Assembly (NCBI RefSeq): GCF_014698335.1
Contig: NZ_JACJSV010000036.1
Span: 1 to 45,803 of the forward strand
Direction of reading: 5' to 3'
Origin: Microcystis viridis FACHB-1342
GTDB taxonomy: Bacteria; Cyanobacteriota; Cyanobacteriia; Cyanobacteriales; Microcystaceae
DNA length: 45,803 bases
Within the stretch, counting starts at the first letter, position 1. Every line of letters begins with the position of its first letter. Positions 3,374 through 33,280 of the stretch are shown here, in pieces. Under the pieces are notes generated by a model. That model was not told the DNA's origin and made no database searches. It was given only the letters and a program-made list of their open reading frames with translations. Both the position numbers and the translations under genes were made by a program.

Positions 3374-3602
3374 ACAGTAATCAGTAATCAGTGAACTGAA
3401 GGCAACAGGCAATAGGCTCCCAGAAAGAATCTGGCAATTCTCCTACCTAAAAAGAAGGTTAGAAACTGAGTAAATTAAAGCTTTTAGCTTAACAAATTGG
3501 GTACTAGATTCAGCCCTTGTGAACTGAAAATTCAAATCTGACCACTGATAACTGACCACTGATAACTGATCAGTGATCACTGATCACTGATCACTGACTC
3601 GA
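3360..3602. repeat. CAGTGATCAGT / ACTGATAAC repeat clusters
   Basis: Bases 3360-3390 are a 31-base match, in reverse complement, to 40792-40822. Bases 3540-3598 hold tandem ACTGATAACTGACC and TGATCACTGATCAC units up to the end of the toxin gene. The middle (3400-3530) shows no gene. The units are palindromic (TGATCA cores), and the family recurs at 1855 and 40713. Confidence 0.8.
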
Positions 3603-3899
3603 TCAATCCAAGAAATGCTTACTATGGACGATCGCCGCTATAATAACTACTGCTCCTTGAATTTGATAGATCAGACGGTAGGCATAGGCAGACTTTTCTC
3701 GGATGGTATCATCGCTAAATTCGGCGCATTTTTTCGCTTCTAGGGGACAATTTTCTAAAGAATAGCTTATATCAAGAATTCGACGCACGACGGCCGCCGC
3801 GTAGGACGGGGAATCTCGACTAATATAAGATGCGATCGCATCCACGTCTTCAATTGCTTTGGGCGACCAGACAAGGCGATAATTCACTCGATCAGCCAT
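3603..3899 (-). CDS. RelE/ParE superfamily toxin
   Basis: 98 residues. It has the ParE-like N-terminal signature YRLVWSPKAIEDVDAIASY (residues 8-26), a central arginine-rich helix and a C-terminal beta strand (YRLIYQIQGAVVIIAAIVH). RelE-fold toxins cut ribosome-bound mRNA and ParE members poison gyrase; the sequence alone does not settle which applies. It is translated after the antitoxin, with a 16-base overlap that implies coupled translation. The pair is flanked by repeats, as an addiction module in an accessory stretch often is. Confidence 0.85.
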   Translation of the reverse strand: MADRVNYRLVWSPKAIEDVDAIASYISRDSPSYAAAVVRRILDISYSLENCPLEAKKCAEFSDDTIREKSAYAYRLIYQIQGAVVIIAAIVHSKHFLD

Positions 3900-13886: not shown

Positions 13887-14559
13887 AAAATTCAGTTGTT
13901 TGACTTCCATTCCCCCGAAACCCACTATTCAAACCCTTCACTTGATTTTGAAGGGCAAGAGTAAGAATGATTCTGTATTCTGTGCTACCGTTTGCCTTGG
14001 GAATTACTGAAAAGCCATTAACGCCTCTTGCCAAAACAGACCACAACCTGATAAACTGGTTGAGCCAAGGCTTCAGGGAAGAGAATGGGGCGATTTATCC
14101 TTAAGAGGGATTGACTTTTACGAAGTTTTATGATTGCTCAACTAGAAAGTCCCCGAAATCTGGTGATTAAGAGTTTTAGCCTGTTGGCTACTGGACTGAC
14201 TAAGCAGACCTAACAAATTCAACTGTATGATACCGAGTCAAGACATCGGCGAGGCAGTAGATTCAGTCAGAAAAACTGACGCACAAGACTTCTCTAATTT
14301 AATGCCTAGACCTGGCTGGTAACAAGTGGCGGGTTTAGGTAAAGGTTGTTTTTGGTATTGAACCCCGATTCTTGTGGTTATTTACCCGCTTCAGTAATTG
14401 CCAATAGGGATTTTAAGCCCATAATTGGTTGAAAATTTCTATTTATTCGCAAAAATCCCCAGTCGCTCCCTGTACTAATCTTAGAGATCGACTTCATGAT
14501 CAGTAATTTTCCCCAACCAATTCTCTGGAAATCACCTTCCAGGACAATTTAGTTATTTT
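13887..14559. other. Intergenic region without recognisable genes
   Basis: Short open frames here (for example a 68-codon frame on the minus strand at 13840-14046) overlap the transposase stump in another frame and have no RBS or recognisable motif. The region looks like decayed mobile DNA ahead of the pentapeptide gene. No strong promoter or hairpin was seen. Confidence 0.4.
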
Positions 14560-15561
14560 ATGAGTAGCAATGCCTTAATCGATCGTGAGCATCTAATCGA
14601 ACTGTATAATCGAGGTGAACGCAACTTTGCGGAAGTCAGACTTAGCGGAGTCAATTTAAAGAGACAGTGTTTAAACCAGATTAACCTAAGTCATAGTTAC
14701 TTAAGACAAGCCAATTTAACCGAAGCTTGTTTAATTAACGCTAATTTCAAGGCTGCTGACCTAGAAGAAGTCAATTTAAGCAAAGCTTGTCTTATCGATG
14801 CTAACCTGACTAAAGCCGCTCTTTCTGGGGCAAATTTGCACCAAAGTAACCTAAGCGGCGCAATTTTGAGTAATACTGTTCTGAAAAAGGCTGATTTAAG
14901 TTCTGCCTGTTTAATTCACAGTAGCCTACTTTTTGCTCAACTGTTCAAGGCGAATCTGGAAGCGGCTAATCTCACCTCAGCCACTTTAACCCATGCCATG
15001 GCGGAGAAAGCTAACCTAAAACGGGCTATTCTCACTCGTGCTATTCTTAGCTCTGCTAATCTTAGCCATGCTAACTTAAAAGAGGCTAACCTAATTCGAG
15101 CCTATCTCTATCAAGCTAATCTGGAAAACTGCCACCTTCAATACGCCGACCTCAGCTATGCCGATTTGCGCGGGGCGGATTTACGGGGGGCGGATTTACG
15201 TTATGCTAACCTGGAAGGAGCTAATCTGACGGGAGCTAACCTCAATTGTAGTGATTTTGAGGGAGCTAACTTAACCGGTGCCGATTTAAGCAAAACTGAC
15301 GCGAATAAAGCCAATTTTCGCCAAGCTAACTTAACCGGTTGTAATCTTCTCGGCGCTAATTTAGCCTCCGCTAACCTTTCCGGTGCTAATCTACACCAAG
15401 CGGGATTACTCTTGAGTTATTTAGTGGGAAGCAATCTTAAACGAGCTAATCTCAAACGAGCTAATTTAATCGGGGCGATTTTAACCGAAAATAATCTTCT
15501 TTCCGCTTCCCTTGAAGAAACTATTCTTCCTAACGGTAGTCGCGGCAATCTCCTTTCCTAA
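14560..15561 (+). CDS. Pentapeptide repeat protein
   Basis: 333 residues, almost entirely A(N/D)LxxA repeats from about residue 25 to 325, for example ADLRGADLRYANLEGANLTG. This predicts a right-handed quadrilateral beta-helix of about 60 coils' worth of pentapeptides. No signal peptide or fused domain is seen. Such proteins are very common in cyanobacteria and mostly of unknown function; a few mimic DNA and protect gyrase. The short N-terminal cap (DREHLIELYNRGERNFAEVR) is usual for this group. A hairpin terminator follows. Confidence 0.92.
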   Translation: MSSNALIDREHLIELYNRGERNFAEVRLSGVNLKRQCLNQINLSHSYLRQANLTEACLINANFKAADLEEVNLSKACLIDANLTKAALSGANLHQSNLSGAILSNTVLKKADLSSACLIHSSLLFAQLFKANLEAANLTSATLTHAMAEKANLKRAILTRAILSSANLSHANLKEANLIRAYLYQANLENCHLQYADLSYADLRGADLRGADLRYANLEGANLTGANLNCSDFEGANLTGADLSKTDANKANFRQANLTGCNLLGANLASANLSGANLHQAGLLLSYLVGSNLKRANLKRANLIGAILTENNLLSASLEETILPNGSRGNLLS

Positions 15562-15570
15562 TATTCCTAG

Positions 15571-15625
15571 AAAAACCTGGTTGTAGAGACTTTTCCGCCA
15601 AGATTTCTATAACCGTGGGGTTTTT
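15571..15625 (+). terminator. Hairpin terminator after the pentapeptide gene
   Basis: AAAAACC with GGTTTTT, plus inner pairing of GGTTGTAGA with TCTATAACC, followed by a T run. It starts about 10 bases after the stop codon. It fits an intrinsic terminator with a long imperfect stem. Confidence 0.6.
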
Positions 15626-16134
15626 CTTCAGCAAAAGGGAGAGCCGGAGTTGGGAGTGGGAATTATGAATTATAAATTATATAACTCTTGAAAATTAGTT
15701 ATATGTTATAGTGGTGAGTTAAATAATTTTACCCAAAAAATTAGTTAATTAGTACAATAGTTCTAAGTGAAAACCTGAAGTTTAACTTTTAACTCAAAAC
15801 TCTTTAGATATGCTTTAATTTGGTTGTCAAAACCTCTTTATTTAAGCAGCACAAACTTTCTCAATTATGGTTACTAAGTAGTCGGACATAAATTCTGTTG
15901 TCTATCTTAAGAAATGTAAATTGCCGTAATTCTTACTGACGACCGACGACCGACTCCTTACCCCACAGTTAACTTTACTTTTTTCCAACTACTTATCAGG
16001 TATCTTCTTGATCAGAAATCACTTTATTTATTCACCCTTTTGCCTCTTGCATAAGTGCTTGTCCTCATAAGTAGCCTATACTCAGCGGATTTAGGATCAG
16101 GTGACGAAACTGGCATTTTCCCCTAATTCAAGGG
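15626..16134. other. Intergenic region, no gene seen
   Basis: A+T-rich, about 500 bases, with degenerate ACTT/AACT words and a GACGACCGACGACCGACT stretch near 15940. No start/stop frame with an RBS, no tRNA and no clear hairpin was recognised. Confidence 0.4.
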
Positions 16135-16173
16135 AAAAACCCCGCATGACTTCCAGAAATCACCGGGGTTTTT
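16135..16173 (-). terminator. Intrinsic terminator, probably the original one of psbM
   Basis: A perfect 10-bp stem AAAAACCCCG (16135-16144) and CGGGGTTTTT (16164-16173) with a 19-base loop. T runs on both strands make it bidirectional. It lies just beyond the MITE that separates it from psbM. Confidence 0.7.
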
Positions 16174-16186
16174 AGGAAGAATAGGG

Positions 16187-16435
16187 ATAGGGAAGCAGGG
16201 TGAGAGCATCTCAAACGCTATTGACAATTGGCCAATTTTGTGATCCGCATGGGCATTTCAAGTGATACCAGTCAATCAAAATAGTTAGGAAATCGACCAA
16301 ATGGGTGGATTTTTGCCTAACAATTGAGATGGCCAATTCTCCTCAAATATGCCTGAATCGCTCTCTGGGTAAGCAACTCACATAAAGTTCATTTTGTCAA
16401 GGCTTGTTAAGATGCGCTTACCCTGGATAGGGAAG
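16187..16435. mobile_element. MITE copy 2 with perfect 9-bp target duplication
   Basis: The element core is 16196-16426, the same length and orientation as 533-763. ATAGGGAAG occurs directly before it (16187-16195) and directly after it (16427-16435), a perfect 9-bp target duplication and direct evidence of transposition. The terminal inverted repeats are about 15 bp. No ORF, so a transposase must act in trans; 9-bp duplications are typical of some IS4-group DDE elements (inference). Insertion is four bases past the psbM stop codon (counting the duplication). Confidence 0.9.
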
Positions 16436-16439
16436 GAAT

Positions 16440-16547
16440 TTAACCCTCGGTTTCCTCTCTGGTTTGGATAAACAGAATCAAGAGGAAAACGGTGGGGACT
16501 AGGACGAATAGGATACTAGCGATAAAGCCGAGATTATTTACTTGCAT
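16440..16547 (-). CDS. psbM: Photosystem II reaction centre protein M
   Basis: 35 residues: MQVNNLGFIASILFVLVPTV followed by FLLILFIQTREETEG. The single transmembrane helix (about 6-27) and the MQVNNLGF start are diagnostic of PsbM, a low-molecular-mass subunit at the PSII dimer interface in the thylakoid. The length is normal. An AGGGAG box precedes the ATG by about seven bases. The gene is monocistronic, and its terminator at 16135 is now separated from it by a MITE. Confidence 0.96.
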   Translation of the reverse strand: MQVNNLGFIASILFVLVPTVFLLILFIQTREETEG

Positions 16548-16636
16548 GAGTTAGCTCCCTCTGTGACAACGGATTTACATAAAGATTAACTCCTAGAATA
16601 TCATCCTGGAGAAGCCAAGGCGTTGCTGATTTGAAA

Positions 16637-16712
16637 GGGAAGTGGGAAGTGGGGAAGTGGGGAAGTGGGGAAGTGGGGAAGTGGGGGAATGGGGGGAATG
16701 GGGGAATGGGGA
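16637..16712. repeat. G-rich 10-bp tandem repeat
   Basis: About five copies of GGGGAAGTGG-type units pass into GGGGGAATGG units. Many G4 runs on the plus strand could form a G-quadruplex. It lies between psbM and the AI-2E transporter gene. Confidence 0.75.
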
Positions 16713-16822
16713 GATGGAGAGAATAAATAAAAATAATCTCCCGAAGACTGAATCCTGAATCCTGACCACTGACGGCGGACTGCTGTATGATAAAATTTGT
16801 CCCGATAGGATAAATTAAGGTC

Positions 16823-17860
16823 GTGAAATTTGGTCAGTGGTTGGGGTTTATCTGTTTAATAATGGCTCTTTATGTATTGTGGCAGATTCGACAGCTGTTA
16901 TTATTGATTTTTATGGCGATCGTGTTTACCGTAGCCTTAAATAGATGTGTGAAAGGATTGCAGAGATTAGGTATTAAAAGGGGTTTGGCTATTTTAATTA
17001 CCCTGCTGACGAGTCTGGGAATTGCGATTTTATTTTTTATAATTATTGTTCCCCCCTTTATCGAACAGTTTCAAAAATTAATTGAACTTTTACCGCAAGC
17101 TTGGAATTTAGTCCGCAATAACTCGATTCAATGGCGACAACAATTTCAATTTGATTGGTTGCCATCGCTGCCTAATTTAACTGATTTAGGACAGCAGTTA
17201 CAACCTTTAGGAACTTTTGTTTTTAGTAACTTTTTTACTTTCTTTTCTAACTCGGTTGCGGCAATTTTGCAATTATTATTCGTGCTGGTGTTAGCAATGA
17301 TGATGTTAGCCAACCCCCAACCCTATCGACAAGCTTTCTTAAAATTATTTCCTAACTTCTATCGTCGTCGTGCTGAGGAAATTCTTACCCTATCGGAAGC
17401 GGGTTTAGGTAATTGGTTGTTGGGAATTGCCATTAGTTCAACTATGGTAGGATTATTAAGTGGGTTCGGTCTTTTGGTTCTACAAATTAATCTAGTTCTC
17501 GTTCATGCTATCCTAGCAGGATTGCTCAATTTTATCCCTAATATCGGACCGACTGCTAGTGTGATTTTTCCGATCCTCATTGCTGTTATCGATGCACCTT
17601 GGAAAATTGTCGCTATTCTGATTCTCTATTTTATTATCCAAAATGTCGAAAGTTATTTATTGACACCCACTGTCATGGCTAAACAGGTATCTTTACTACC
17701 GGCAATTACCCTAATCGCTCAAATTTTCTTCGCTCAAATGTTTGGCATCTTAGGTTTATTATTGGCTTTACCTTTGACAGTGGTAGTAAAAACATGGTTA
17801 GATGAATTATTATTCAAAGACATTTTAGATCAGTGGGATCAAGTCCATAACAAATCTTAA
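16823..17860 (+). CDS. AI-2E family (UPF0118/PerM) transporter
   Basis: 345 residues with about eight hydrophobic segments. Features: two N-terminal helices (LGFICLIMALYVLWQIRQLL), a periplasmic helical domain (about 75-140), and the conserved GLLNFIPNIGPTASVIFPIL (about 233-252) followed by LTPTVMAKQVSLLPAITLIA. The family includes TqsA (AI-2 export) and Na+/H+ antiporter-like members; the name does not fix the substrate. The start is GTG with AAGG nearby. It leads a tight run of three genes (gaps of 18 and 12 bases). Confidence 0.9.
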   Translation: MKFGQWLGFICLIMALYVLWQIRQLLLLIFMAIVFTVALNRCVKGLQRLGIKRGLAILITLLTSLGIAILFFIIIVPPFIEQFQKLIELLPQAWNLVRNNSIQWRQQFQFDWLPSLPNLTDLGQQLQPLGTFVFSNFFTFFSNSVAAILQLLFVLVLAMMMLANPQPYRQAFLKLFPNFYRRRAEEILTLSEAGLGNWLLGIAISSTMVGLLSGFGLLVLQINLVLVHAILAGLLNFIPNIGPTASVIFPILIAVIDAPWKIVAILILYFIIQNVESYLLTPTVMAKQVSLLPAITLIAQIFFAQMFGILGLLLALPLTVVVKTWLDELLFKDILDQWDQVHNKS

Positions 17861-17878
17861 ATAATCTCGGCAAAAACC

Positions 17879-18736
17879 ATGAAATTAATCATTCTTACTC
17901 TCGTTATTTTATCTAATGTTTTTGCTACTCTCCCAGCTAAATCTGAAACAGTGCTAGAAAAAATTAAACGCACGGGATTATTAGAAGTAGCGATGAGAGA
18001 AGATGCCATTCCGTTTGGCTATCGAGATAGTAATAATAATTTGCAGGGATTGTGCTTAGATTTTATCCAATTGCTTAGAGAAGAACTCAAGCACAAATTA
18101 AACCTCCAAATCATCAGTGTCAAAATTTATAAATCGACTTTATTTAATCGCTTCCAGTTATTGGAAAATAAAACCGTTGATTTTGAGTGTGGTCCTAATA
18201 GTATCAGAAAAAATATACCTGATGGTGTCAGTTTTTCTCGCCCTTTTTTTGTGACGGGAACTCAGTTTTTAGTTCGGAGTGATAATCAGAATAATTTTAA
18301 CTTTTCTTCGTCCTTAGAAGGTATAAGTATTGGAGTTTTGCGAGATACCACCACTCAAGAATTATTAAGACAAAAATATCCTCTTGCTACCTATCAAGAA
18401 TTTCAAGGAGTGACGGGAAGACTGCGAGGTATTCAAAGTTTAAGAAGGAATAGAATAGATGCTTTTGCTAGTGATGGGATTCTGCTAATTGGAGAAGCTG
18501 TCATTCTCGGTTTATCCTTAGAACAAGATTATCAACTTATCCCCCGCAATCCTTTAAATTGTGATTATTATGGTTTCATTCTTCCCGCTAATGATCCCCA
18601 ATGGCAAGAGTTTATTAATGGGGTTATCGTCACCAGTGAGAACAGAAATATTTTTAAAGCATGGTTTACTGAAGTTGCTTCTTATTTTAGAGATACTTGG
18701 CAGTATTGTCGTAATAATCCCGAAAGATCCCAGTAA
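17879..18736 (+). CDS. Family 3 extracellular solute-binding protein
   Basis: 285 residues. Signal peptide at about 1-22 (LIILTLVILSNVFATLPAKS). The mature start KIKRTGLLEVAMREDAIPFG and DSNNNLQGLCLDFIQLLREE are the standard SBP_bac_3 opening; SFSRPFFVTGTQFLV and ISIGVLRDTTTQELL mark the hinge and second lobe. Such proteins bind amino acids for ABC uptake or serve as sensors. No permease or ATPase gene is adjacent. Flanking membrane-protein genes are closely spaced, but no functional link is known. Confidence 0.88.
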   Translation: MKLIILTLVILSNVFATLPAKSETVLEKIKRTGLLEVAMREDAIPFGYRDSNNNLQGLCLDFIQLLREELKHKLNLQIISVKIYKSTLFNRFQLLENKTVDFECGPNSIRKNIPDGVSFSRPFFVTGTQFLVRSDNQNNFNFSSSLEGISIGVLRDTTTQELLRQKYPLATYQEFQGVTGRLRGIQSLRRNRIDAFASDGILLIGEAVILGLSLEQDYQLIPRNPLNCDYYGFILPANDPQWQEFINGVIVTSENRNIFKAWFTEVASYFRDTWQYCRNNPERSQ

Positions 18737-18748
18737 AATTTAACGATT

Positions 18749-20155
18749 ATGCACAAAAAGAATGATTTATTTTGGTTAATTGGTTGCGCTACAATAATCC
18801 TGTTTATTTGCAGTGCTATCAGACATATTTTATTTCAATCTAATGCTCTTGATCTTGGTTGGTTCGATCAGGGAGTTTACTTAATTTCTCAAGCTAAACC
18901 ACCGATTATATCTTTTGTTGGCTACCATATCTTAGGCGATCATATCGCTTTTATTCTCTATCCTATAGCCTTACTTTATAAAATTTATCCTAGCGTTTAT
19001 TGGCTGCTTTTCTTGCAAGCTTTTTCCCTTTCCCTTGCCGTTTTTCCCCTCTGGCAATTGGCAATACAAGCGGGATTAAAAGAAAAACAAGCTTATACAT
19101 TAGCCTTAGTTTATCTGCTCTATCCCCTGATTTTTAACGTTAATCTCTTTGATTTTCATCCAGAAGTTATCGCAGTGCCAGCCATTTTTTGGACGGTTTT
19201 AGCGGCAAGATTAAATAATCCCTGGGGATTTTGTCTAGGAATTATTATTATTCTCGGTTGTAAAGCAATTCTCTCTTTAACATTGTTGGGAATGGGTATC
19301 TGGTTACTTCTCTGGGAAAAGAAAAAAATCCCAGGAATAATTGCTATGATTAGCGGCATTCTTTGGTTTATTATCACCACGAAATTATTAATCCCTCTCC
19401 TGACAGGAAAATCGGCAGTTATTGAAATGGCTGATTCTCGATATAGTTATCTAGGAGATAGTTTGCCAGCAATTATCTTTAATCTTTTCCTCAAACCCGA
19501 TCTTGTCTTAGGAAAAATCTTTACTGGCAATAATCTAGAATACCTCATCCTATTAATTATTCCCTTAGTTTGGGGTTTATCTTGGCGCTATTCTACCGCA
19601 ATAATTGCCGCTATTCCCGCACTCGCTTTAAATTTATTAGCAGATCATGCCCCACAAAAAAACTTAACCACTCAATATTCCCTGCCAATTTTGCCCTTTT
19701 TATTTCTAGCGGTTATCGCCACTTTAGCCCATAATGGTAACTGGTTAAAAAAACCTAAATGGATAATTACTTGGGCAATTATTGCCTTTTTTGCCCTAGC
19801 TAAATACGGCTATTTTTGGTCACTGTATTTAAATTCCCTCGATACTTGGTCCGCCACCCAAAAAGCTCTTACCCAAATTACCACCAGTGACAGTGTCTTG
19901 ACTACTTCTAGAATTGCCCCCCATCTTACCCATCGGAAAATGATCAAATTAGCGATCGAAGGTTCCCAATCCCTGGATTTAAATCAATTTAATTATATCC
20001 TACTCGATCGCCGTCATCCCGGTTGGTCTAGTTCACCAGAACTAATTGATGATCACTTAAATAAACTGAATCAAAATGAGAACTTTCAGTTAATCGTTAA
20101 TCAGGATGATGTGTTTTTATATCGGGCCTTGACAACCCCTCAAGAAACAAAATAA
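18749..20155 (+). CDS. DUF2079 multi-pass membrane protein
   Basis: 468 residues, about 10-12 hydrophobic helices. The N-terminal DLGWFDQGVYLISQAKPP (about 29-46) and GDHIAFILYPIALLYK (about 62-77) are the DUF2079 signature, reminiscent of the periplasmic loop of GT-C glycosyltransferases and dolichyl-phosphate-mannose mannosyltransferases. A short soluble C-terminal domain (about 370-468) follows. A lipid-linked sugar transfer role is inference from fold resemblance. Its 3' end overlaps the 3' end of miaA by 59 bases (convergent). Confidence 0.85.
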   Translation: MHKKNDLFWLIGCATIILFICSAIRHILFQSNALDLGWFDQGVYLISQAKPPIISFVGYHILGDHIAFILYPIALLYKIYPSVYWLLFLQAFSLSLAVFPLWQLAIQAGLKEKQAYTLALVYLLYPLIFNVNLFDFHPEVIAVPAIFWTVLAARLNNPWGFCLGIIIILGCKAILSLTLLGMGIWLLLWEKKKIPGIIAMISGILWFIITTKLLIPLLTGKSAVIEMADSRYSYLGDSLPAIIFNLFLKPDLVLGKIFTGNNLEYLILLIIPLVWGLSWRYSTAIIAAIPALALNLLADHAPQKNLTTQYSLPILPFLFLAVIATLAHNGNWLKKPKWIITWAIIAFFALAKYGYFWSLYLNSLDTWSATQKALTQITTSDSVLTTSRIAPHLTHRKMIKLAIEGSQSLDLNQFNYILLDRRHPGWSSSPELIDDHLNKLNQNENFQLIVNQDDVFLYRALTTPQETK

Positions 20156-25812: not shown

Positions 25813-26754
25813 ATGAATCAAGCTCCTTTTCTTCCAGTTAACCATCCCCGGCCTAACTTTCTCGACCGGTTAGGGAGTCTCTGGAAATTTTCCCGTCCCC
25901 ATACGATTATCGGCACTTCTTTAAGTGTTTTAAGTCTGTATTTGATTGCTTTAGGCAATATTAGCGATTTTTTTAGCCATTGGTCGGTTTTATTGCTCAC
26001 TTGGACTGCTTGTCTTGCGGGTAATGTCTATATTGTCGGTTTAAATCAGTTGGAAGACATCGACATCGATAAAATCAATAAACCCCATCTTCCCCTAGCC
26101 AAGGGCGAATTTTCTCGGTTAACAGGCGGGTTGATCGTGGGTTTTAGCGGTATTTTAGCAATCATACTGGCTTTTATCGGTGGTTTTTGGCTGTCAATCA
26201 CCGTGGGGATTAGTTTACTCATCGGCACTGCCTATTCCTTGCCACCAGTGCGGTTAAAACGCTTTCCCCTCTGGGCAGCCTTCTGTATTTTTACCGTCCG
26301 GGGTGTCATCGTTAATTTAGGTCTTTTTCGCCACTACAACACAGTTATTAATCAAAATCAGTCTATCTATCCCTCAGTCTGGGTTTTAACCGCTTTTGTT
26401 CTCGTTTTCACCGTTGCGATCGCTATTTTCAAGGATGTTCCTGACCTAGAAGGCGATCGCATTTACCAAATTACCACTTTTACCCTGCTGCTCGGCCCAG
26501 AAAAAATCTTAACAATTTCTCTCTTGACAATTTCTCTGTGTTATGCAGGTATGATTGTCGTCGGTCTCTTGGGAATAACGGGAATTAATTCTCCTCTGGC
26601 CATTGTCGCCCATCTGCTCCTACTTGTTCTTCTTTGGTGGCGTAGTCGCGGAGTAAATTTAGAAGATAAAAGCGAAATCAGCCGATTCTACCAATTTATT
26701 TGGAAATTATTCTTCCTGGAATACCTGATATTTCCCCTTGCTTGTTTAATATGA
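25813..26754 (+). CDS. hpt: Homogentisate phytyltransferase
   Basis: 313 residues, UbiA superfamily, about eight membrane helices. It condenses homogentisate with phytyl diphosphate, the committed step of tocopherol synthesis at the thylakoid or inner envelope-type membrane. The two Asp-rich motifs are visible: NQLEDIDIDKINKPHLPLAK (about 77-96) and FKDVPDLEGDRIYQI (about 203-217). SRPHTIIGTSLSVLSLYLIA near the start is typical of this subgroup and sets it apart from chlorophyll synthase. The ATG follows a T8 run with no clear RBS. tRNA-Ser lies upstream and a HigB stump just downstream. Confidence 0.9.
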   Translation: MNQAPFLPVNHPRPNFLDRLGSLWKFSRPHTIIGTSLSVLSLYLIALGNISDFFSHWSVLLLTWTACLAGNVYIVGLNQLEDIDIDKINKPHLPLAKGEFSRLTGGLIVGFSGILAIILAFIGGFWLSITVGISLLIGTAYSLPPVRLKRFPLWAAFCIFTVRGVIVNLGLFRHYNTVINQNQSIYPSVWVLTAFVLVFTVAIAIFKDVPDLEGDRIYQITTFTLLLGPEKILTISLLTISLCYAGMIVVGLLGITGINSPLAIVAHLLLLVLLWWRSRGVNLEDKSEISRFYQFIWKLFFLEYLIFPLACLI

Positions 26755-26815
26755 AAATATCTCCTTTTTTAGCGGCCATTCCCTCACTTTTGCTAGGTGG
26801 CACAAGCGCACCTAG

Positions 26816-26974
26816 TCAAGAAACCATCTCCGAATTCCACCAGGGAATAAGTTGGAGGCACTCCGAGGAGATAGGAAGGGGCAGTACAGCATCCGAATCA
26901 ACGACCAGTACCGCATCTGTTTCGTTTGGACAGAAAGCGGACCTTCTCAAGTAGAGATAGTGGACTACCATTGA
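26816..26974 (+). pseudogene. HigB toxin, 5'-truncated
   Basis: The frame opens after TAG at 26813 and reads [20 protein letters not shown] then [18 protein letters not shown] and VEIVDYH before TGA. This is the C-terminal half of a HigB/RelE-type mRNA interferase, including the conserved G-D-R-x-G-Q-Y-S-I-R-I-N region. The first roughly 40 residues are missing and no start codon is usable. The intact antitoxin follows 8 bases later. Confidence 0.82.
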
Positions 26975-26982
26975 GGTGAAAG

Positions 26983-27312
26983 ATGATCCGAGTACCAACC
27001 CATCGCGCCCCCAGCCATCCAGGAGAAGTTCTCCTTTATGATTTTCTGGAACCGATGAACCTGACACAGCGAGAGCTGGCTTTAAGACTTCACGTTCCTT
27101 ACCAGCGAGTCAACGAGCTAGTCAATGCCCGACGAGGCATTACCCCCAGCACGGCACTCCGTCTGGCAAAGTTCTTCGGCAACTCACCCGATTTCTGGCT
27201 GAATCTGCAATTGCGGTGGGATATTTATCAGGTAAAAAAGAAGGAGGACGGGGAAATAGAGAAAATATCTCCTCTAAAGTGTTGTAAAATGACAAATTTT
27301 AGTGAATTATAA
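26983..27312 (+). CDS. higA: HigA family antitoxin (XRE helix-turn-helix)
   Basis: 109 residues. APSHPGEVLLYDFLEPMNLT (9-28) followed by the HTH QRELALRLHVPYQRVNELVN and GITPSTALRLAKFFGNSPDF is the classic HigA profile. A GAGGTGAAAG box lies just before the ATG, and the order toxin-then-antitoxin is the normal hig order. Since the toxin is truncated, the antitoxin is now an orphan that may still bind its own operator. The tail after LQLRWDIY (about 88-109) diverges from the usual HigA ending, so its 3' end may also have been replaced. Confidence 0.88.
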   Translation: MIRVPTHRAPSHPGEVLLYDFLEPMNLTQRELALRLHVPYQRVNELVNARRGITPSTALRLAKFFGNSPDFWLNLQLRWDIYQVKKKEDGEIEKISPLKCCKMTNFSEL

Positions 27313-27338: not shown

Positions 27339-30300
27339 ATGCCCGACGAAAATACGGAGAACCAAGAAGCTCAAATGACAATCCCATTGGTTAGAGCTAC
27401 TGACATTGCTGAATATATTCGTTATCAATCATGCGATCGCCGTTTTAAGTTAAAGTACAAAAATTATGAACTTGCCAAAAAAGATATTCCTTTTTATGAG
27501 TTGATTTTTTCAACCTCTTTAGACCCGGTTTTAGAAGCAGAAGGTCGAAAAAGAGAGGATGAATGGGAGAAATCACTTCAGAAAGAAGGATTAGTAGATT
27601 TAACCCAAATAGAGCAGAATTCTAAGGAAGACAAATCAACTAATTGGAATGACTTTGTTGAAAAGTTAACAAATTTGTCAGTCGGACAAAAAGCTTATGG
27701 ACGGGAAATTGGTATCAATGGAAAACTGGGAGAATTTGAGATTAGTGGGCAAATTGATTTTGTAATTGTTTTTTGGGAAAATGAACAACCTAAACTGCGA
27801 TTAGTTGAGTGTAAAGCGTCTCGAAAAGATAGAACTTATCATCGAGTACAAGTTGCTTTATATAGAATGCTTTTACGTCAACTGATAAACGATAATCCAA
27901 TCACTATCAATGGAATAAATTTAAAGCCTAAAAATATTGAATGTGTTGTAGTTCGCATTGATGAAAATACTAATAAAAGTCAAGATATTATTAAATCTGA
28001 AGCTTTAAACCTAGATACAATAGAAGCTGATATTAATCGTTTAGTAGCTTCTGATGGTGTGCTAAAACGTATTATTGAAACTGATTTAACTGATTTAGAT
28101 TATCAATTAGACCAAAAATGTAGTGACTGCACATTGAGTGTTCATTGTTTAGCTGAAAGTGCAAGAGAACGCCGTTTAGAATTATTGGGAATAGATTCAT
28201 CAGTTGTTAAATCATTGAATAAAGTAGGTATTCAAAATCTTGATGATTTAGCCGAGATTGACTTAGCAGGAAATCAAGCTATTCAACTTCAAAAAGATAT
28301 AAGTTTTACAGAGAATCTAGAACTGCTTAAATTAAAGGCAAACACTCGTCGGCGGACTCTTCCTGGTGGAGACTTAGATCCAAGAACCTATGAAGTGACG
28401 GCACTTCCGAGTTATTCAGGTAAGAGTCAACTTCCAGAACATACAATTAATGGAAAACGCCTTATTCGTGTCTATCTTTCTGTTGAGTATGATTATGTAG
28501 AAAATAGAATAGGTGCGCTGGCTGCTCATGTTACTAAAAGTGAGGGAAAATTAGACCCAAAATTTGAGCAAAATGCAGATGGTAAATGGCAACCAGATCC
28601 TAACATTAAAGAATATTTAGAAGAAGGAATTGATGAAAATAATAAACCTATTTTTAAAGAAAAAGAACTTGAGGGAGAAGATTTAATTAAATTTAAAACT
28701 TCAGCATGGACAGGAGATTATAAAGAAGATAATGGTTCTGAAAAAGAGTTAATACAAGGATTTTTATTAGAATTAGTTGGTAAGATTGCCAAGATAGCTA
28801 AAACAGAACAAGCACCCATTCATTTTTATGTTTGGTCACGTCAAGAAATGACTCAATTAGTTGAGGGATGTTCTCGCGTTAATTCAGCACTATTGAGTCA
28901 TTTACGAGAGTTACTAGGATGTCGAGAAAGTTTAGAACAACTTATTTACTCTTGTCTTTCCGATGAAGTAGATCGCCGTTATGCTTTAGGATGGACAGGT
29001 AGAGATTTAGCGGTTGTCACTTCTCTTAAGTGGTTTGGAAGACGTTACCATTGGAGACGGGAGATCAATGGAAGGCTTGTTAATTTAGATCAGGCTTTTT
29101 CTCAAGATATATTTGACTTTAAAAATAATTTAGAAATAGATGATAATAATCAATGGGCGACATCACAATCTCAAAATGTTCGTAAGCATCAGTTTGAAGT
29201 TAGACTAAGATACTTTAATTCTCTAAGTGCAGCTTATTGGCGTGCCTTATGGCGAACACTTCCTGACCCTAATGAGCCAACACTTCCCCCCAAGTTAAAA
29301 AGCTCCATTGAACGCTACAATCAAGCACAAAAACCGAATTATTTAAAAGAGTATTTTCGCGCTCGTACTCATGCTATCAGATGGATTGAAGAAGGAATTA
29401 GATTTAAGAATCCAGAAATAACAAAAAAATCTTTGACTATTGCTGATTTACCCGTTTTTAGTTTAGATGTGGATGCTGCCCAGGCAGCTATTGATTTTCT
29501 TCGTTTGGATCAGCACGTTAAGGTAACAGATTGGATTGCTAATCATTTAATACCACCTATCTACCGTGTTTCTTTAGGGAGAACAATACCTGTAAAAAAT
29601 GTAAGGTTACAGGGTGATAATAGACTAACAGCAGAAATTAATCTTGATGGATATAATATTACGGCTGAAGTTTTACAAGCTAACTGTACCATTGATGTAG
29701 GTTCTTTTGTTAGACTTAGTCCTAGTTCCGAAGATCCACATCAAGGTCAAACAATCAGACAACTTTTTGCTGGTGGAAGTACCTGTGTTGTAGAAAAAAT
29801 TGACTGGGATACTGAGCAGATAGAGCTTTCTGTTATTCCTGGTAAGTCACAACTCTATCGACTTTACAGTAAATCTCATAACGGCGTAACACAAGTTTTT
29901 CAAAACGCGACTTTAGATGAAAGTCCATCGGATTTTATAGCTGGAAGGGTTGATCAAAAATTACAAAATGCTAAAGATAATCACATTTGTAAATGGTTAA
30001 ATCCGCAAACTCCTCAAATCCCCCCACAAACTCCTATTTCGGAGAATGATTTAGAACAATATTCTAATCTACTTGATACTTTACCGTTATCAAACAATCA
30101 AAAACTGGATGAAAAGCAACTTGAAGTAATTATTAAGGGATTGAATACAAGAATTCAACTTTTACAAGGACCACCGGGAACTGGAAAAACAGAAACAACT
30201 GCGATCGCTACTTTTCTAAGAATCTTGGCGCGTCGCAATGTTGGCGATATTGTTCTGATTGCGGCTCATACGCATACTGCTGTAGATAATTTACTCTTAC

Positions 30301-31559
30301 GTTTAGATAAATTGTTGCCAACTTTGCAAGAACACGCCAATGATTATCAACTTTCTGTTCCACCAATTAAGTTGAGTAAAGTGCATTCTAAAGAAATTAA
30401 GAGAACAGGCGGAAATATCACTGATTTTTCCGCAAAATCTTGCTTTGAAAAAATTAATAATTTACGAGGTAAGAAAACAGCTAAAAAAATAACTATATAT
30501 AACTGTATAGCAGTTATTGGTGGAACAACGGGCGCAATTTTAAAGATGTTAAATACACTGCAACAGGCAAAAACTTTTCCTCAATATTATCCTCAAGGTT
30601 TTAAAACAACTACTTTAATAGTCGATGAAGCAAGTATGATGGTATTTCCTCAATTTCTGGCTTTAGCTACATTAGTTAAAGATGATGGTGAAATTATGTT
30701 GGCAGGAGATCACAGACAACTCGCTCCTATTATTACTCATGATTGGGAAAATGAAGATCGTCCTCCTGTTTTACTTTATCAACCCTATGTCAGTGCTTAT
30801 CAAGCTATTCAAAATCTTAAAGAAAACTCAGATATTGAAATATCTGATGAAGCAATATTACGTTCAGCTTTAGATTATACTCATCGTTTACCCCATGAAA
30901 TTCGTGAACTTATTGCACGTCTTTATCGCAAAGATAACATTGAATTACAAGGAAAACCAAGAGATGAAAGTATAAAACAAGATGAAATTACGGGAACTTG
31001 GGAAAAACTTTTACAGGGAAATGGAGGTCTTTATCTTGTTGTTCATGATGAACGTGAATCAAAACGTAGCAATCAAATTGAAGTGAAAATAATCAAAAAA
31101 ATTCTTGATGCGGGAGGAGATATTCCTAATGGTTCTACTGCAATTCTTACACCCCATCGCGCTCAAAGATCGCTACTAAAAACCAAATTAGCAAATTATT
31201 ATGAAAACGCTGTAGATGTAATTGATACAGTCGAGAAAGTGCAGGGTGGTGAGCGTGACAATGTGATCGTTTCTGCAACAGCAAGTAATCCATCAGCAAT
31301 TGGCAAGACTGTGGAGTTCATTCTTAGTTTAAATCGCTCAAACGTTGCATTTTCAAGAGTTAAAAAGCGTTTAATAGTAGTTTGCTCTAAAACTCTCCTA
31401 GACTATATTCCAAAAGAGATTGAACACTATGAAGAAGCAACATTATGGAAAGCTTTACGTTCTGAATGTACCGATACTCTGTTTAATGACAATATTGATA
31501 AGCATCAAGTACAGGTTTTGACAAGATCACTAAAAAGCCGAACTAAGGAAGGCGATTAA
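27339..31559 (+). CDS. RecB-like Fe-S nuclease fused to SF1 (Dna2/UPF1-type) helicase
   Basis: 1406 residues. The N-terminal PD-(D/E)XK nuclease shows GQIDFVIVF (Asp about 139), RLVECKAS (Glu about 155, Lys about 157) and a QVALYRMLLRQL helix. Cys32 plus C-x2-C-x5-C (about 261-270, KCSDCTLSVHC) match the four-cysteine Fe-S staple of AddB/Dna2 nucleases. A helix-hairpin-like segment (LNKVGIQNLDDLAEIDLAG) and about 600 residues of unassigned middle follow. Then helicase: GPPGTGKTET (about 943), VDEASMM (about 1094), GDHRQLAP (about 1122), TPHRAQR (about 1270), VQGGERDN (about 1300). It resembles TM0106-type RecB-like proteins. It is visibly more A+T-rich than its neighbours, and HigA lies just upstream: probably acquired. 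An anti-phage role is inference. Confidence 0.85.
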   Translation: MPDENTENQEAQMTIPLVRATDIAEYIRYQSCDRRFKLKYKNYELAKKDIPFYELIFSTSLDPVLEAEGRKREDEWEKSLQKEGLVDLTQIEQNSKEDKSTNWNDFVEKLTNLSVGQKAYGREIGINGKLGEFEISGQIDFVIVFWENEQPKLRLVECKASRKDRTYHRVQVALYRMLLRQLINDNPITINGINLKPKNIECVVVRIDENTNKSQDIIKSEALNLDTIEADINRLVASDGVLKRIIETDLTDLDYQLDQKCSDCTLSVHCLAESARERRLELLGIDSSVVKSLNKVGIQNLDDLAEIDLAGNQAIQLQKDISFTENLELLKLKANTRRRTLPGGDLDPRTYEVTALPSYSGKSQLPEHTINGKRLIRVYLSVEYDYVENRIGALAAHVTKSEGKLDPKFEQNADGKWQPDPNIKEYLEEGIDENNKPIFKEKELEGEDLIKFKTSAWTGDYKEDNGSEKELIQGFLLELVGKIAKIAKTEQAPIHFYVWSRQEMTQLVEGCSRVNSALLSHLRELLGCRESLEQLIYSCLSDEVDRRYALGWTGRDLAVVTSLKWFGRRYHWRREINGRLVNLDQAFSQDIFDFKNNLEIDDNNQWATSQSQNVRKHQFEVRLRYFNSLSAAYWRALWRTLPDPNEPTLPPKLKSSIERYNQAQKPNYLKEYFRARTHAIRWIEEGIRFKNPEITKKSLTIADLPVFSLDVDAAQAAIDFLRLDQHVKVTDWIANHLIPPIYRVSLGRTIPVKNVRLQGDNRLTAEINLDGYNITAEVLQANCTIDVGSFVRLSPSSEDPHQGQTIRQLFAGGSTCVVEKIDWDTEQIELSVIPGKSQLYRLYSKSHNGVTQVFQNATLDESPSDFIAGRVDQKLQNAKDNHICKWLNPQTPQIPPQTPISENDLEQYSNLLDTLPLSNNQKLDEKQLEVIIKGLNTRIQLLQGPPGTGKTETTAIATFLRILARRNVGDIVLIAAHTHTAVDNLLLRLDKLLPTLQEHANDYQLSVPPIKLSKVHSKEIKRTGGNITDFSAKSCFEKINNLRGKKTAKKITIYNCIAVIGGTTGAILKMLNTLQQAKTFPQYYPQGFKTTTLIVDEASMMVFPQFLALATLVKDDGEIMLAGDHRQLAPIITHDWENEDRPPVLLYQPYVSAYQAIQNLKENSDIEISDEAILRSALDYTHRLPHEIRELIARLYRKDNIELQGKPRDESIKQDEITGTWEKLLQGNGGLYLVVHDERESKRSNQIEVKIIKKILDAGGDIPNGSTAILTPHRAQRSLLKTKLANYYENAVDVIDTVEKVQGGERDNVIVSATASNPSAIGKTVEFILSLNRSNVAFSRVKKRLIVVCSKTLLDYIPKEIEHYEEATLWKALRSECTDTLFNDNIDKHQVQVLTRSLKSRTKEGD

Positions 31560-32075
31560 GGATAACCTTGCTGCCTTGATTGACTACTGGGCGATCGATT
31601 GGGATTATGACGGCATAACCTGATTTGATGCTGACTTGTAATTGATAATAACTGAGTAATGCAGTATTAAGAGACAGGCTAAATCCTTAGGAGAGATTTA
31701 CAAAATTGTAACCAATCTTTTCAAATAGATAAATCGTGCGTCAATCTATTCCCAGCCTGAAACCTTATAAGTCTCTCTCTCCTAAACGTTTTGTGAGAAC
31801 TATTAACATTAATCAATTTCATTGTAATTTAAGAAAAGATGCTGATTTTTCGCCTATCTCAAGTGCGTAGATTTTTGAGGATTAAAGATGATGGTAGGAG
31901 ATTCTTAGATTTAGGCAAATTCCCCGAAAACCGCCCCCTTTGTCAGGAAGCATTTATAGAGATTATGATGACTATTTGAGCAATGATTTATGATATAATC
32001 AAGACGGCTGACCAAAATAGCACCTAAATTCAGAACTATCTAGAATTACAGCTTTAATTTCCGCCTAACTAAACT
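31560..32075. other. Intergenic region downstream of the nuclease-helicase gene
   Basis: 516 bases without an intact gene. A 24-codon frame at about 31550-31620 reads KDNLAALIDYWAIDWDYDG and stops, and could be the end of a lost DNA methylase or other gene (weak). The remainder is A+T-rich and includes GATTTATGATATAATCAAG near 31985, a plausible extended -10 for the ferredoxin gene. Confidence 0.4.
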
Positions 32076-32444
32076 ATGACTAAATATCATCAAATCACCG
32101 TTAACAATCGTCAGACGGGCGAAAAAATTACCACCACCGTTCCTGAGGATAACTATATACTCCACAGTCTGGAAAAACAGGGCTATCAATTACCCTTTTC
32201 CTGTCGCAATGGAGCTTGTACCAGCTGCGCGGTCAGGGTATTATCGGGAGATATCCATCAACCAGAAGCGATCGGACTATCGCCGGAATTAAAAGCCAGA
32301 GGTTATGCTTTACTTTGTGTCAGTTATGCCCGTGGCGATCTGGAAGTAGCCACCCAGGACGAAGATGAAGTCTATGAACTGCAATTCGGTCGCTTTTTTG
32401 CTCGTGGGAAAGTGCGTTTTGGTTTACCCTTAGATGAGGAATAG
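32076..32444 (+). CDS. FdC2-type [2Fe-2S] ferredoxin with C-terminal extension
   Basis: 122 residues. The plant-type ferredoxin fold has cluster ligands C-x4-C-x2-C in SCRNGACTSCAVRV (about 43-56) and a fourth Cys in ALLCVSYARGD (about 86). After the normal end, DEDEVYELQFGRFFARGKVR (about 96-115) forms the conserved tail that marks FdC2, a group shared by cyanobacteria and chloroplasts. Family knowledge links FdC2 to specialised electron transfer rather than bulk photosynthetic flow. It is followed after 14 bases by the IMPase gene, so probably co-transcribed. Confidence 0.88.
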   Translation: MTKYHQITVNNRQTGEKITTTVPEDNYILHSLEKQGYQLPFSCRNGACTSCAVRVLSGDIHQPEAIGLSPELKARGYALLCVSYARGDLEVATQDEDEVYELQFGRFFARGKVRFGLPLDEE

Positions 32445-32458
32445 ATTAGGGATTAATC

Positions 32459-33280
32459 GTGCTAGATACCAGCAGCCAATTAGAAAAATACTTAGACATT
32501 GCCAGCGAAGCCGCTCTAGCGGCGGGAACAATTATCCTCGATAATTGGGGTAAAATCGAGACAATAGAAGAAAAAGGGCGATCGGGCGATTTAGTGACGG
32601 AAATAGATCGTCGAGCAGAAACAGAAATTCTCAAAATTATTGGCCGTCACTTTCCCAAACACGGGATTTTAGCGGAAGAATCGGGAAAACTGCCAGGGAC
32701 CGATAGCGACTATCTCTGGGCGATCGATCCTCTCGATGGAACCACCAACTATGCCCACGGTTATCCCGTATCCGTCGTCTCCATCGGACTACTGATCGCA
32801 GGGATAGCAGCAGTGGGAGTCATCTATAACCCCTTTAGAAAGGAACTATTTCGGGCAGCCCGGGGTTTGGGGGCCACTCTGAACCGTCGTCCCATCCATG
32901 TCTCCCGGACCGGTGAACTAGAAAAAAGTTTACTGGTGACGGGTTTTGCCTACGATCGCTGTCAAACCTCCGATAATAATTATGCCGAATTCTGTTATTT
33001 GACCCATCTGACCCAAGGGGTACGCCGCAGCGGTTCCGCTGCCAACGACTTAACCGATGTGGCCTGTGGGCGCTTAGATGGTTATTGGGAACGAGGGATT
33101 AATCCCTGGGATCTGGCCGCAGGAGTTATTCTGATCGAAGAAGCTGGGGGTAAAATTAGCGCCTACGATGAGAGTCCTTTTTTGATAGAAACGGGGCGAA
33201 TCCTGGCTACTAACGGACAGATTCACACCCCCTTAAGCCAAGCTCTGCAAAAAGCGGCTTCTTGGAGCTTTCAGTTTTAA
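32459..33280 (+). CDS. Inositol monophosphatase family protein
   Basis: 273 residues from a GTG start. Metal-binding motifs: GILAEESG (Glu about 72), WAIDPLDGTTNYAHGYPVSV (about 91-110) and the C-terminal NPWDLAAGVILIEEAGG (about 217-233). These define the Mg2+-dependent, Li+-sensitive IMPase/FBPase-like fold. The substrate could be inositol phosphate, histidinol phosphate or another phosphate ester; the sequence does not decide. It lies in a run ferredoxin - IMPase - J-domain protein with short gaps. Confidence 0.92.
   Translation: MLDTSSQLEKYLDIASEAALAAGTIILDNWGKIETIEEKGRSGDLVTEIDRRAETEILKIIGRHFPKHGILAEESGKLPGTDSDYLWAIDPLDGTTNYAHGYPVSVVSIGLLIAGIAAVGVIYNPFRKELFRAARGLGATLNRRPIHVSRTGELEKSLLVTGFAYDRCQTSDNNYAEFCYLTHLTQGVRRSGSAANDLTDVACGRLDGYWERGINPWDLAAGVILIEEAGGKISAYDESPFLIETGRILATNGQIHTPLSQALQKAASWSFQF

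Follow-up and report, generated by a model that had tools for sequence, protein, structure and literature searches.

The closest described system to the one reported here is Bad, a bacterial DNA2-like helicase–nuclease of Geobacillus stearothermophilus, 1,245 amino acids long, in which an N-terminal iron–sulfur (Fe-S) nuclease is followed by a central domain without homology and a C-terminal superfamily 1B (SF1B) helicase, and which has a sporadic distribution (PMC7430649; this and the other papers cited are drawn on through excerpts). Purified Bad contains an Fe-S cluster, cuts single-stranded DNA (ssDNA) as an endonuclease and acts as a 5′–3′ translocase and helicase with a preference for 5′ overhangs and junctions; in Geobacilli, bad genes adjoin a type III Mod gene, and the authors propose a novel restriction enzyme, the role of bacterial DNA2-like enzymes being left open in the excerpted text of 2020 (PMC7430649). 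Here we describe a gene of this architecture in a 45,803-nucleotide stretch of Microcystis viridis FACHB-1342 (contig NZ_JACJSV010000036.1; hereafter, the window), together with its relatives in other bacteria and archaea. The gene is conserved in its motifs, mobile at the strain level and under purifying selection, and 9 of 19 of its non-cyanobacterial loci are paired with C5-cytosine methyltransferase genes. On balance, the evidence tips towards a Dna2-like (Bad-like) nuclease–helicase for defence against foreign DNA, which in fuller loci would be the DNA-degrading subunit of a restriction system with a C5-methyltransferase. The gene and its parts are as follows.

27339–31559, forward strand: fusion of an Fe-S RecB-type nuclease and an SF1B helicase, intact; open reading frame (ORF) of 1,406 amino acids without interruption
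27339–28163, forward strand: N-terminal PD-(D/E)XK nuclease with Fe-S cysteines, residues 1–275 (Pfam PDDEXK_1 and kept residues)
28164–30092, forward strand: conserved central region, residues ~276–918 (weak helix–hairpin–helix near its start; no Pfam family above cut-off)
30093–31559, forward strand: C-terminal SF1B helicase of Upf1/DNA2/IGHMBP2 type (Pfam AAA_11/AAA_12, structure matches)
30168–30188 and 30624–30635, forward strand, within the helicase: Walker A codons and DEAS codons, respectively (motif positions)

A first, sequence-only reading of the window had described an intact 1,406-residue nuclease–helicase fusion with all nuclease, Fe-S and helicase motifs in place, and this description stands. 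Pfam places PDDEXK_1 on residues 100–270 and AAA_11/AAA_12 on stretches within 922–1351, the latter well over their cut-offs, as against 13 bits for the UvrD-helicase family (cut-off 23). The nuclease motifs are D140, E157-x-K159 and Q171xxxY175, the Fe-S cysteines C32 and C261-x2-C264-x5-C270, and the helicase motifs GPPGTGK (944–950), DEAS (1096–1099) and GDHRQ (1123–1127). In a 26-member family alignment that counts the window protein among its rows, D140, E157, K159, Q171, Y175, C32, C261, C264 and C270 are kept in all covering rows, and Walker A and B are almost invariant; C32 is missing in one haloarchaeal plasmid copy (L040; loci and genomes are numbered with L and G) solely through a late called start, and E157 is replaced by D in the distant relatives L041 and L042. 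Conserved sequence sets in at about residue 17, and translation may thus begin at the ATG of residue 13. The gene is present as a single copy in its own genome.

The nearest solved structures to the helicase by sequence are SMUBP-2, DNA2 and Upf1/NAM7, and the family profile matches the nuclease to PDB chain 4ic1_A (E 0.009), which is listed as uncharacterised and which we take to be a Cas4. NCBIfam gives sub-threshold matches only (PLuB_AAA, the IGHMBP2 family, RecD2, TM0106 and others). In a PADLOC scan, a check that the sequence-only reading had proposed, the best matches (MkoA, DpdJ and others) fall on the helicase and weak Cas4 matches on the nuclease, and no PADLOC family spans the whole protein.

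The ~640 residues between the catalytic parts, put at about 600 and said to match nothing recognisable in the sequence-only reading, indeed have no Pfam family above cut-off, and a PDB search with them gave nothing credible. In the 26-member alignment they are conserved roughly as well as the two catalytic parts, most strongly at 501–550. Because a profile of the region aligns over 599 columns with five distant full-length relatives (from haloarchaeal plasmids and Chlorohelix, ~25–27% identical to the window protein where listed) at 100% probability and E 6e-46, it is a real shared region rather than low-complexity filler. A helix–hairpin–helix is weakly indicated at its beginning, where HHH_5 matches 9 of the 26 members (best E 0.0055). 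Three further assignments were dropped. An RNase H fold for residues 370–540 had been suggested by a motif spacing common to this protein and the TM0106 family, but now seems improbable: the segment reached 0.8% when profiles were compared, with only the helix–hairpin–helix matched, and the expected active-site acidic residues are not conserved. Leucine-rich-repeat PDB matches of the central profile (best 0.0008) cover ~100 residues at the helix–hairpin–helix end, and Pfam ATP_sub_h matches 10 of the 26 members, at 0.0003 for the best, with 13.7 bits against 25 for the window protein; both were judged to be chance.

The window protein thus shares with Bad a four-cysteine Fe-S RecB-type nuclease and a C-terminal SF1B helicase in the same order, and it has a conserved central region without known family, as Bad has by published description; the sequence-only verdict that the architecture could not be placed was too strong, since it is the published architecture of Bad (PMC7430649). 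The rarity and sporadic distribution of the family are likewise Bad-like. A DNA methyltransferase neighbour, of the C5 type, is present in 9 of 19 non-cyanobacterial relatives and is found neither in the window nor in 14 other cyanobacterial loci. The spacing in Bad from D150, a nuclease residue that was mutated, to the Walker lysine K815 is 665, in contrast to 810 from D140 to K950 here (if D150 is the counterpart of D140), and, unlike Geobacillus Bad with its type III Mod (adenine), the present family pairs with C5-cytosine methyltransferases or is solitary (PMC7430649). The likeness being one of architecture, we file the window protein as Bad-like, a probable subfamily rather than a proven Bad orthologue.

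Other known systems match in part. Eukaryotic DNA2 agrees in the order of its domains and in the class of its helicase (phmmer gives E 9e-11 for chains 5eaw/5ean/5eax) but is described as without a central domain of the Bad kind (PMC7430649), and the window gene, unlike DNA2, is neither universal nor core, being patchy over bacteria and archaea. The UvrD–Cas4-like fusions of PMC5704561 also join a nuclease (pfam12705) to an SF1 helicase, are predicted to act in defence and have Dcm or type III restriction–modification neighbours; their helicase is of the UvrD type (3′–5′), whereas here it is of the Upf1/DNA2 type and accompanied by a large central region. The TM0106 family (TIGR03491) shares the order nuclease, helix–hairpin–helix, helicase, with only a weak helix–hairpin–helix here (59% for the segment, 18% for the whole region), but the window protein scores 27.5 against a cut-off of 97.45 (NCBIfam), and the RNase_H_2 domain of the three TM0106-type proteins scanned has no detected counterpart in it (no Pfam match, profile 0.8%). 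Similarity to Mokosh MkoA (9.4e-43) is to an SF1 helicase, and the best-scoring stretches cover the helicase only, not the whole model. Nhi, a single-gene nuclease–helicase that acts against phage, is alike by description (PMC12904381), but no Nhi-named family is among the 16 PADLOC matches listed for the window protein, from a library that was not checked for an Nhi model. In the literature searched, a single paper collection, we recognised no description of this subfamily.

The family is rare at every level sampled. Within the genus, 2 of 12 genomes carry a full-length copy; the figure is 3 of 59 for near relatives (with the own genome counted) and 4 of 386 for a phylum sample, which holds one more copy cut at 1,066 amino acids; some match at E 0.001 is found in 160 of the 386, the rest being partial and mostly to the helicase (phylum scans scored at most two candidates per genome). 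In three other phyla at E 1e-100 the counts, besides the centre genome, are 2/293, 1/397 and 0/395, which added one new locus (L099, in G1094), G440 being the genome of L072 and G492 the L040 plasmid again. This distribution rules out a core gene; the sequence-only reading had named homologues that are core and syntenic in all cyanobacteria as the finding that would count against defence, and none such emerged. An alignment-based scan of genome contigs gave 30 loci, 14 cyanobacterial and 16 other (L058, from Obscuribacterales, counted among the latter), with best segments 43–91% identical; some are split or cut by contig ends, and the match is whole-length where contig and ORF allow. Hosts include cyanobacteria, Planctomycetota, Armatimonadota, Actinomycetota, Pseudomonadota, Bacteroidota, Methanoculleus, Bathyarchaeota and others, and copies at ~41% identity lie on two haloarchaeal plasmids. 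As to a viral origin, one scan of viral contigs with two short patterns found no relative, and in the sole phage record the match extends over 21% of the query sequence.

In a tree of 28 rows (L069, L071, L041 and L042 dropped; L050, L056 and L063 never entered; L099 found later), the cyanobacterial copies form one clade (100/100) whose internal order does not follow family, Microcoleaceae rows being scattered. Alignments A4 and A7 are without L050, L056 and L063 (split ORFs) and L069 and L071 (contig-cut, L071 with in-frame stops), and A7 also without L061 and L064 (cut) and L065 (a near-copy of L051). The gene is split into several ORFs in L050, L056 and L063 (Okeania, Hydrocoleum and a Microcoleaceae metagenome-assembled genome), which reflects either gene decay in some hosts or faulty assemblies. 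The L055 record is titled Oceanobacillus sp. HTM 045; because its phylum sample shares genomes with that of L067 (Caulobacter), that is, Pseudomonadota, the title is probably wrong and the assembly mislabelled.

The evidence for a restriction role comes from the neighbours of these relatives. Clustering of 509 predicted proteins from the 32 loci other than the window gave a C5-cytosine methyltransferase as the sole recurrent partner. Ten of the 32 have one, next to the gene in eight (L039, L055, L057, L060, L061, L066, L067 and L068) and 8–9 kb away in L040 and L048 (8.8 kb in L048). The eight pairs were confirmed by annotation (L039), by Pfam (L057, L061) or by a genome search with PF00145 (L055, L057, L060, L066, L067, L068), and L099 has an adjacent methyltransferase too (PF00145, 3.8e-51), with a small Xre-type regulator alongside. 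The gene is thus paired in 9 of 19 non-cyanobacterial loci, at gaps from −74 to +1454 bp, the longest of which contains the SacI-type gene of L055; in six loci the two ORFs overlap or lie less than 200 bp apart. The PF00145 search covered 23 of the 30 genome-contig loci (not L045, L050, L056, L061, L063, L069 or L071) and the own genome. The six paired genomes tested hold 1, 2, 1, 1, 2 and 1 C5-methyltransferase matches, and six of these eight are the neighbour itself. Across 13 non-cyanobacterial genomes, a methyltransferase lies within 5 kb in 6, against 0.066 expected (Poisson, P about 1e-10), where gene pieces count as matches and uniform placement is a lenient null, since defence genes cluster.

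The pairing is also found on several branches of the family. On the tree it needs five changes, at least three of them forced by well-supported branches, and the partner methyltransferases are of at least three kinds: those of L055, L057, L060, L067 and L099 share 43–51%, that of L039 is 30–37% identical to this group, and those of L061 and L066, and of L068, share ~24–28% with the other partners. Between L060 and L099 the nuclease–helicases are 83% identical, as against 51% for the methyltransferases, which lie on opposite sides of the gene, so here the partner has apparently been exchanged and the pairing kept.

Several observations weigh against a methyltransferase-guided role. An adjacent C5-methyltransferase is found in none of the 15 cyanobacterial loci, window included, within the sequence available for them, and the 11 cyanobacterial genomes tested hold 4–12 C5-methyltransferase matches each, none of them adjacent; the window contig has none, and the own genome has nine matches on other contigs. 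Ten of the 19 non-cyanobacterial loci are likewise without an adjacent methyltransferase, and in five of these (L059, L064, L069, L070 and L071) one flank or both extend for less than 1 kb. The nine pairs include close relatives (L061/L066 and L060/L099) and so are not fully independent; the tree carries a warning of joined long branches, and the pairing label is only moderately clustered or dispersed on it (14 of 500 shuffles as low). Six cyanobacterial copies (L047, L048, L049, L051, L054 and L065) stand single among housekeeping-like genes (by eye), with polA-like ORFs beside L048 and L049 and a ruvA-like ORF near L047. Finally, neighbourhood cannot separate a restriction subunit from an accessory protein.

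The cyanobacterial loci are what would be expected if the protein defends without guidance by methylation, attacking phage replication intermediates (ssDNA, junctions or phage SSB) in the manner of Nhi or DruE, the methyltransferases being separate residents of defence islands. Bad prefers 5′ overhangs and single-strand/double-strand junctions (PMC7430649), Nhi is a single-gene nuclease–helicase linked with phage SSB (PMC12904381), and DruE, by its description, is a helicase–nuclease on ssDNA-containing intermediates (PMC13192584). The Planktothrix copy, which is joined to a UvrD helicase, has a DruE-like gene 1.6 kb away. An island resident would, however, hardly account for six of all eight C5-methyltransferase matches in the paired genomes, for the overlapping or closely spaced ORFs of six loci or for a pairing that persists when the partner differs, and we regard unguided defence as rather unlikely.

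A second alternative turns on the additional restriction genes. A SacI-family restriction enzyme is added to the pair in L039 and L055, and an HNH/DUF3427 protein in L060; in the distant relatives L042 and L088 an Mrr-type gene lies directly downstream of the nuclease–helicase. The partner enzyme could then make the cut and the nuclease–helicase degrade from the ends, as an accessory. No separate restriction enzyme was recognised, however, beside the pairs of L057, L066, L067 and L099, where Pfam was run on some of the ORFs (the L061 sequence stops shortly past the methyltransferase), and Bad is reported to cut by itself (PMC7430649). Such an accessory role appears unlikely.

Elsewhere the family keeps the company of mobile and defence genes, as the proposed inspection of homologues' neighbourhoods brought out: Cas12k/TniQ/TniB, DruE or DrmB lie near some relatives. 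In Aphanothece (L044) the gene has Cas12k (3e-262) and a MerR-type regulator on one side and TniQ, TniB and a Mu-type transposase on the other, and so looks like the cargo of a type V-K CRISPR-associated transposon; Tn7-like transposons are described as carrying restriction systems and other defence genes (PMC8649781). A Schlafen/AlbA_2 protein also lies within this Cas12k–TniQ–TniB–transposase stretch (L044 70–11765). The Planktothrix copy (L052 8276–14179) is one ORF of 1,967 amino acids with the UvrD helicase ahead of the nuclease–helicase; its DruE-like neighbour scores 2.3e-109, and a large NTPase gene is near. DrmB (6.5e-84), a PLD protein and a Schlafen-type helicase follow the gene in L068, a PLD-helicase precedes it in L046, and downstream of the haloarchaeal copy in L040 lies an HNH endonuclease fused to a Sacsin/HATPase-like ATPase (1,561 amino acids, 14327–19012). 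Copies on haloarchaeal plasmids and inside a Cas12k transposon would also suit a gene that serves the mobile element alone, in plasmid or transposon maintenance or in competition between elements, without benefit to the host. Several copies, however, sit in stretches in which no element genes were noticed (by eye), and purifying selection is seen between two Microcystis strains; we consider such element housekeeping the least probable account, and highly improbable.

Little more probable is a role in DNA repair or replication like that of eukaryotic DNA2, for a gene that has spread by transfer. The domain order is that of DNA2, the helicase matches DNA2, Upf1 and IGHMBP2 structures, and polA-like or ruvA-like ORFs lie near L047, L048 and L049; the sequence-only reading had held that homologues sitting with replication or repair genes would speak against defence, which is true of these three single copies, whose surroundings are unlike one another, so that no rule follows. 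The gene is absent from most relatives' genomes and is linked elsewhere to methyltransferases and to mobile or defence genes, which makes a repair role very unlikely. Taken as a candidate defence gene, as first proposed from sequence, the gene is supported by its patchy distribution, its variable site at the strain level and the methyltransferase and restriction-enzyme partners of its relatives.

Further afield, inspection of the neighbourhoods of six plasmid matches brought up two distant proteins on rhizobial plasmids (L100 1768–7118 and L105 1720–7079; 1,414–1,416 amino acids, with a Upf1/DNA2-type helicase). Their N-terminus aligns with the nuclease by MAFFT, where Pfam detects no nuclease, and they may or may not be Bad relatives. 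Both genes are convergent to an N6/N4 methyltransferase gene, with an annotated anti-phage dGTPase next door in L105; because they adjoin this type, Dna2-like fusions seem to have paired with unlike methyltransferases more than once. Another rhizobial plasmid (L087 1011–6206) carries a TM0106-type nuclease–helicase followed by multiubiquitin, ThiF-type and DUF6527 genes.

The strain-level history of the Microcystis copy can be read from the following neighbouring features.

26700–26827, forward strand: stub (5′ end) of a 765–774-amino-acid gene, whole in each of the 11 other genus genomes examined
26826–26827, no strand: scar of a ~5.1-kb deletion relative to the sister strain; 2-bp overlap, with the stub of the 774-amino-acid gene joined to sequence within the hig module that precedes the HigB remainder
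26852–26974, forward strand: 3′ remainder of a HigB-type toxin gene, 40 amino acids open (PF05015, 1.6e-6, profile positions 53–91 of 91)
26983–27312, forward strand: HigA-type antitoxin, HTH_3 (TIGR02607, 5.8e-31; Pfam HTH_3)
31560–31964, no strand: A+T-rich right flank, from the gene to the ferredoxin region; from 31665 common to strain G003, whose extra genes differ
31965–33280, forward strand: conserved right flank, in 12 of 12 genus genomes (split over two contigs in G011)
32076–32444, forward strand: ferredoxin-like gene (named by eye)
32459–33280, forward strand: inositol monophosphatase gene (PF00459, 3.1e-72)

The left flank (25813–26827), like the right, is present in 12 of 12 genus genomes, and in all the others it is followed by the intact ORF of 765–774 amino acids, which in the sister strain has no Pfam match. 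The flanks lie ~2.2–3.0 kb apart in 10 of the 11 other genomes, with no copy of the nuclease–helicase between them. The exception is the sister strain G006, in which the order is the 774-amino-acid gene, a ferredoxin copy, transposase-like fragments (by eye), HigB, HigA, the nuclease–helicase and a second ferredoxin copy, with HigB intact (97 amino acids; PF05015, 7.8e-16). The two ferredoxin stretches, 97.3% identical over 512 bp (L078, G006:C174:62754-75306, reverse strand; 3268–3757 and 11090 onward), are a duplication that bounds the acquired block in G006. The nuclease–helicase has been horizontally acquired and is mobile at the strain level.

The window block is the G006 block minus ~5.1 kb. 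As G006 keeps intact HigB, HigA and the nuclease–helicase as one block, the broken hig module is the result of a later deletion, and the acquired block was once larger; the 765–774-amino-acid gene being intact in all other genus genomes, we infer that the G006 arrangement is the older state. The HigB fragment noticed in the sequence-only reading is thus real, but it marks this deletion scar and not, as then supposed, an insertion junction. HigBA as the edge of the insertion was rejected, the sister strain having an intact block and HigA being host-like in composition (third-position GC content (GC3) 0.48). The HigA gene ends 26 bp before the nuclease–helicase start on the same strand. In G003 (L080 3432–3960), a different module, of two small BrnT/BrnA-like genes (by eye), occupies this site between the 765-amino-acid gene and the ferredoxin gene, which may thus be a small insertion hotspot.

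The difference in base composition from the flanking genes, first noted by eye, is borne out by measurement: the gene has a GC content of 0.349 against 0.432 for the whole window and is the most A+T-rich stretch of its length there, values as low occurring only in overlapping sliding windows (7 of 832; lowest elsewhere, 0.371), and its GC3 is 0.196 against 0.41–0.51 in six other window genes. Composition as the sole evidence of acquisition was set aside, in view of a second A+T-rich stretch at 16823–20155 with genes at GC 0.366–0.370; two genes in this stretch (16.8–20.2 kb) are likewise low in GC3 (0.32–0.35). Strong GC skew (0.229) is found at 16001–17000 of the window. The nuclease–helicase is under purifying selection, with a ratio of nonsynonymous to synonymous substitution rates (dN/dS) of 0.39 relative to the sister strain and 0.25 relative to the Aphanothece copy; a pair of Microcoleus copies gives 0.21. 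The helicase third alone gives 0.78 between window and sister strain, on very few changes (dS 0.033).

Returning to defence as a restriction subunit, the biochemical activity, methylation sensitivity and phage restriction that we infer for the window protein would proceed in the following way, the enzymatic steps being modelled on purified Bad. The Fe-S nuclease–helicase would load on a free 5′ end or a single-strand/double-strand junction, its SF1B motor would move 5′–3′ along the DNA and the nuclease would cut the single strand ahead of the motor, with the central region perhaps binding DNA and giving specificity. Where the pair exists, the partner evidence suggests that self DNA would be marked by the C5-cytosine methyltransferase. 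For the Microcystis copy, which has no adjacent methyltransferase and lies behind a HigA-type regulator, one of the nine C5-methyltransferases encoded on other contigs might guard self DNA; alternatively, another cue, phage replication intermediates for example, could act as the licence. The upstream helix–turn–helix genes, HigA in the window and an Xre-type gene in L054, would fit the control of a dangerous nuclease. More tentatively, and with some doubt, we suggest that the family could form a separate class of ATP-dependent restriction enzyme, present in bacteria and archaea, in which one polypeptide unwinds DNA and cuts the strand in front of it, the central region reads a site protected by the methyltransferase, the pairing outlasts changes of methyltransferase and the cyanobacterial copies, as mobile orphans, borrow a resident mark.

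A neighbouring type III methyltransferase in Geobacilli had been, according to the excerpted text, the sole clue to the role of bacterial DNA2-like enzymes (PMC7430649). The present analysis provides a wide family of Bad architecture with a statistically strong C5-methyltransferase link on several branches, and with a member carried as cargo of a Cas12k transposon. Should the restriction reading hold, the known restriction enzymes would be joined by one in which unwinding and cutting go together, and the compact pairs, a methyltransferase and one large gene, make the role of bacterial Dna2-like enzymes testable in ordinary hosts.

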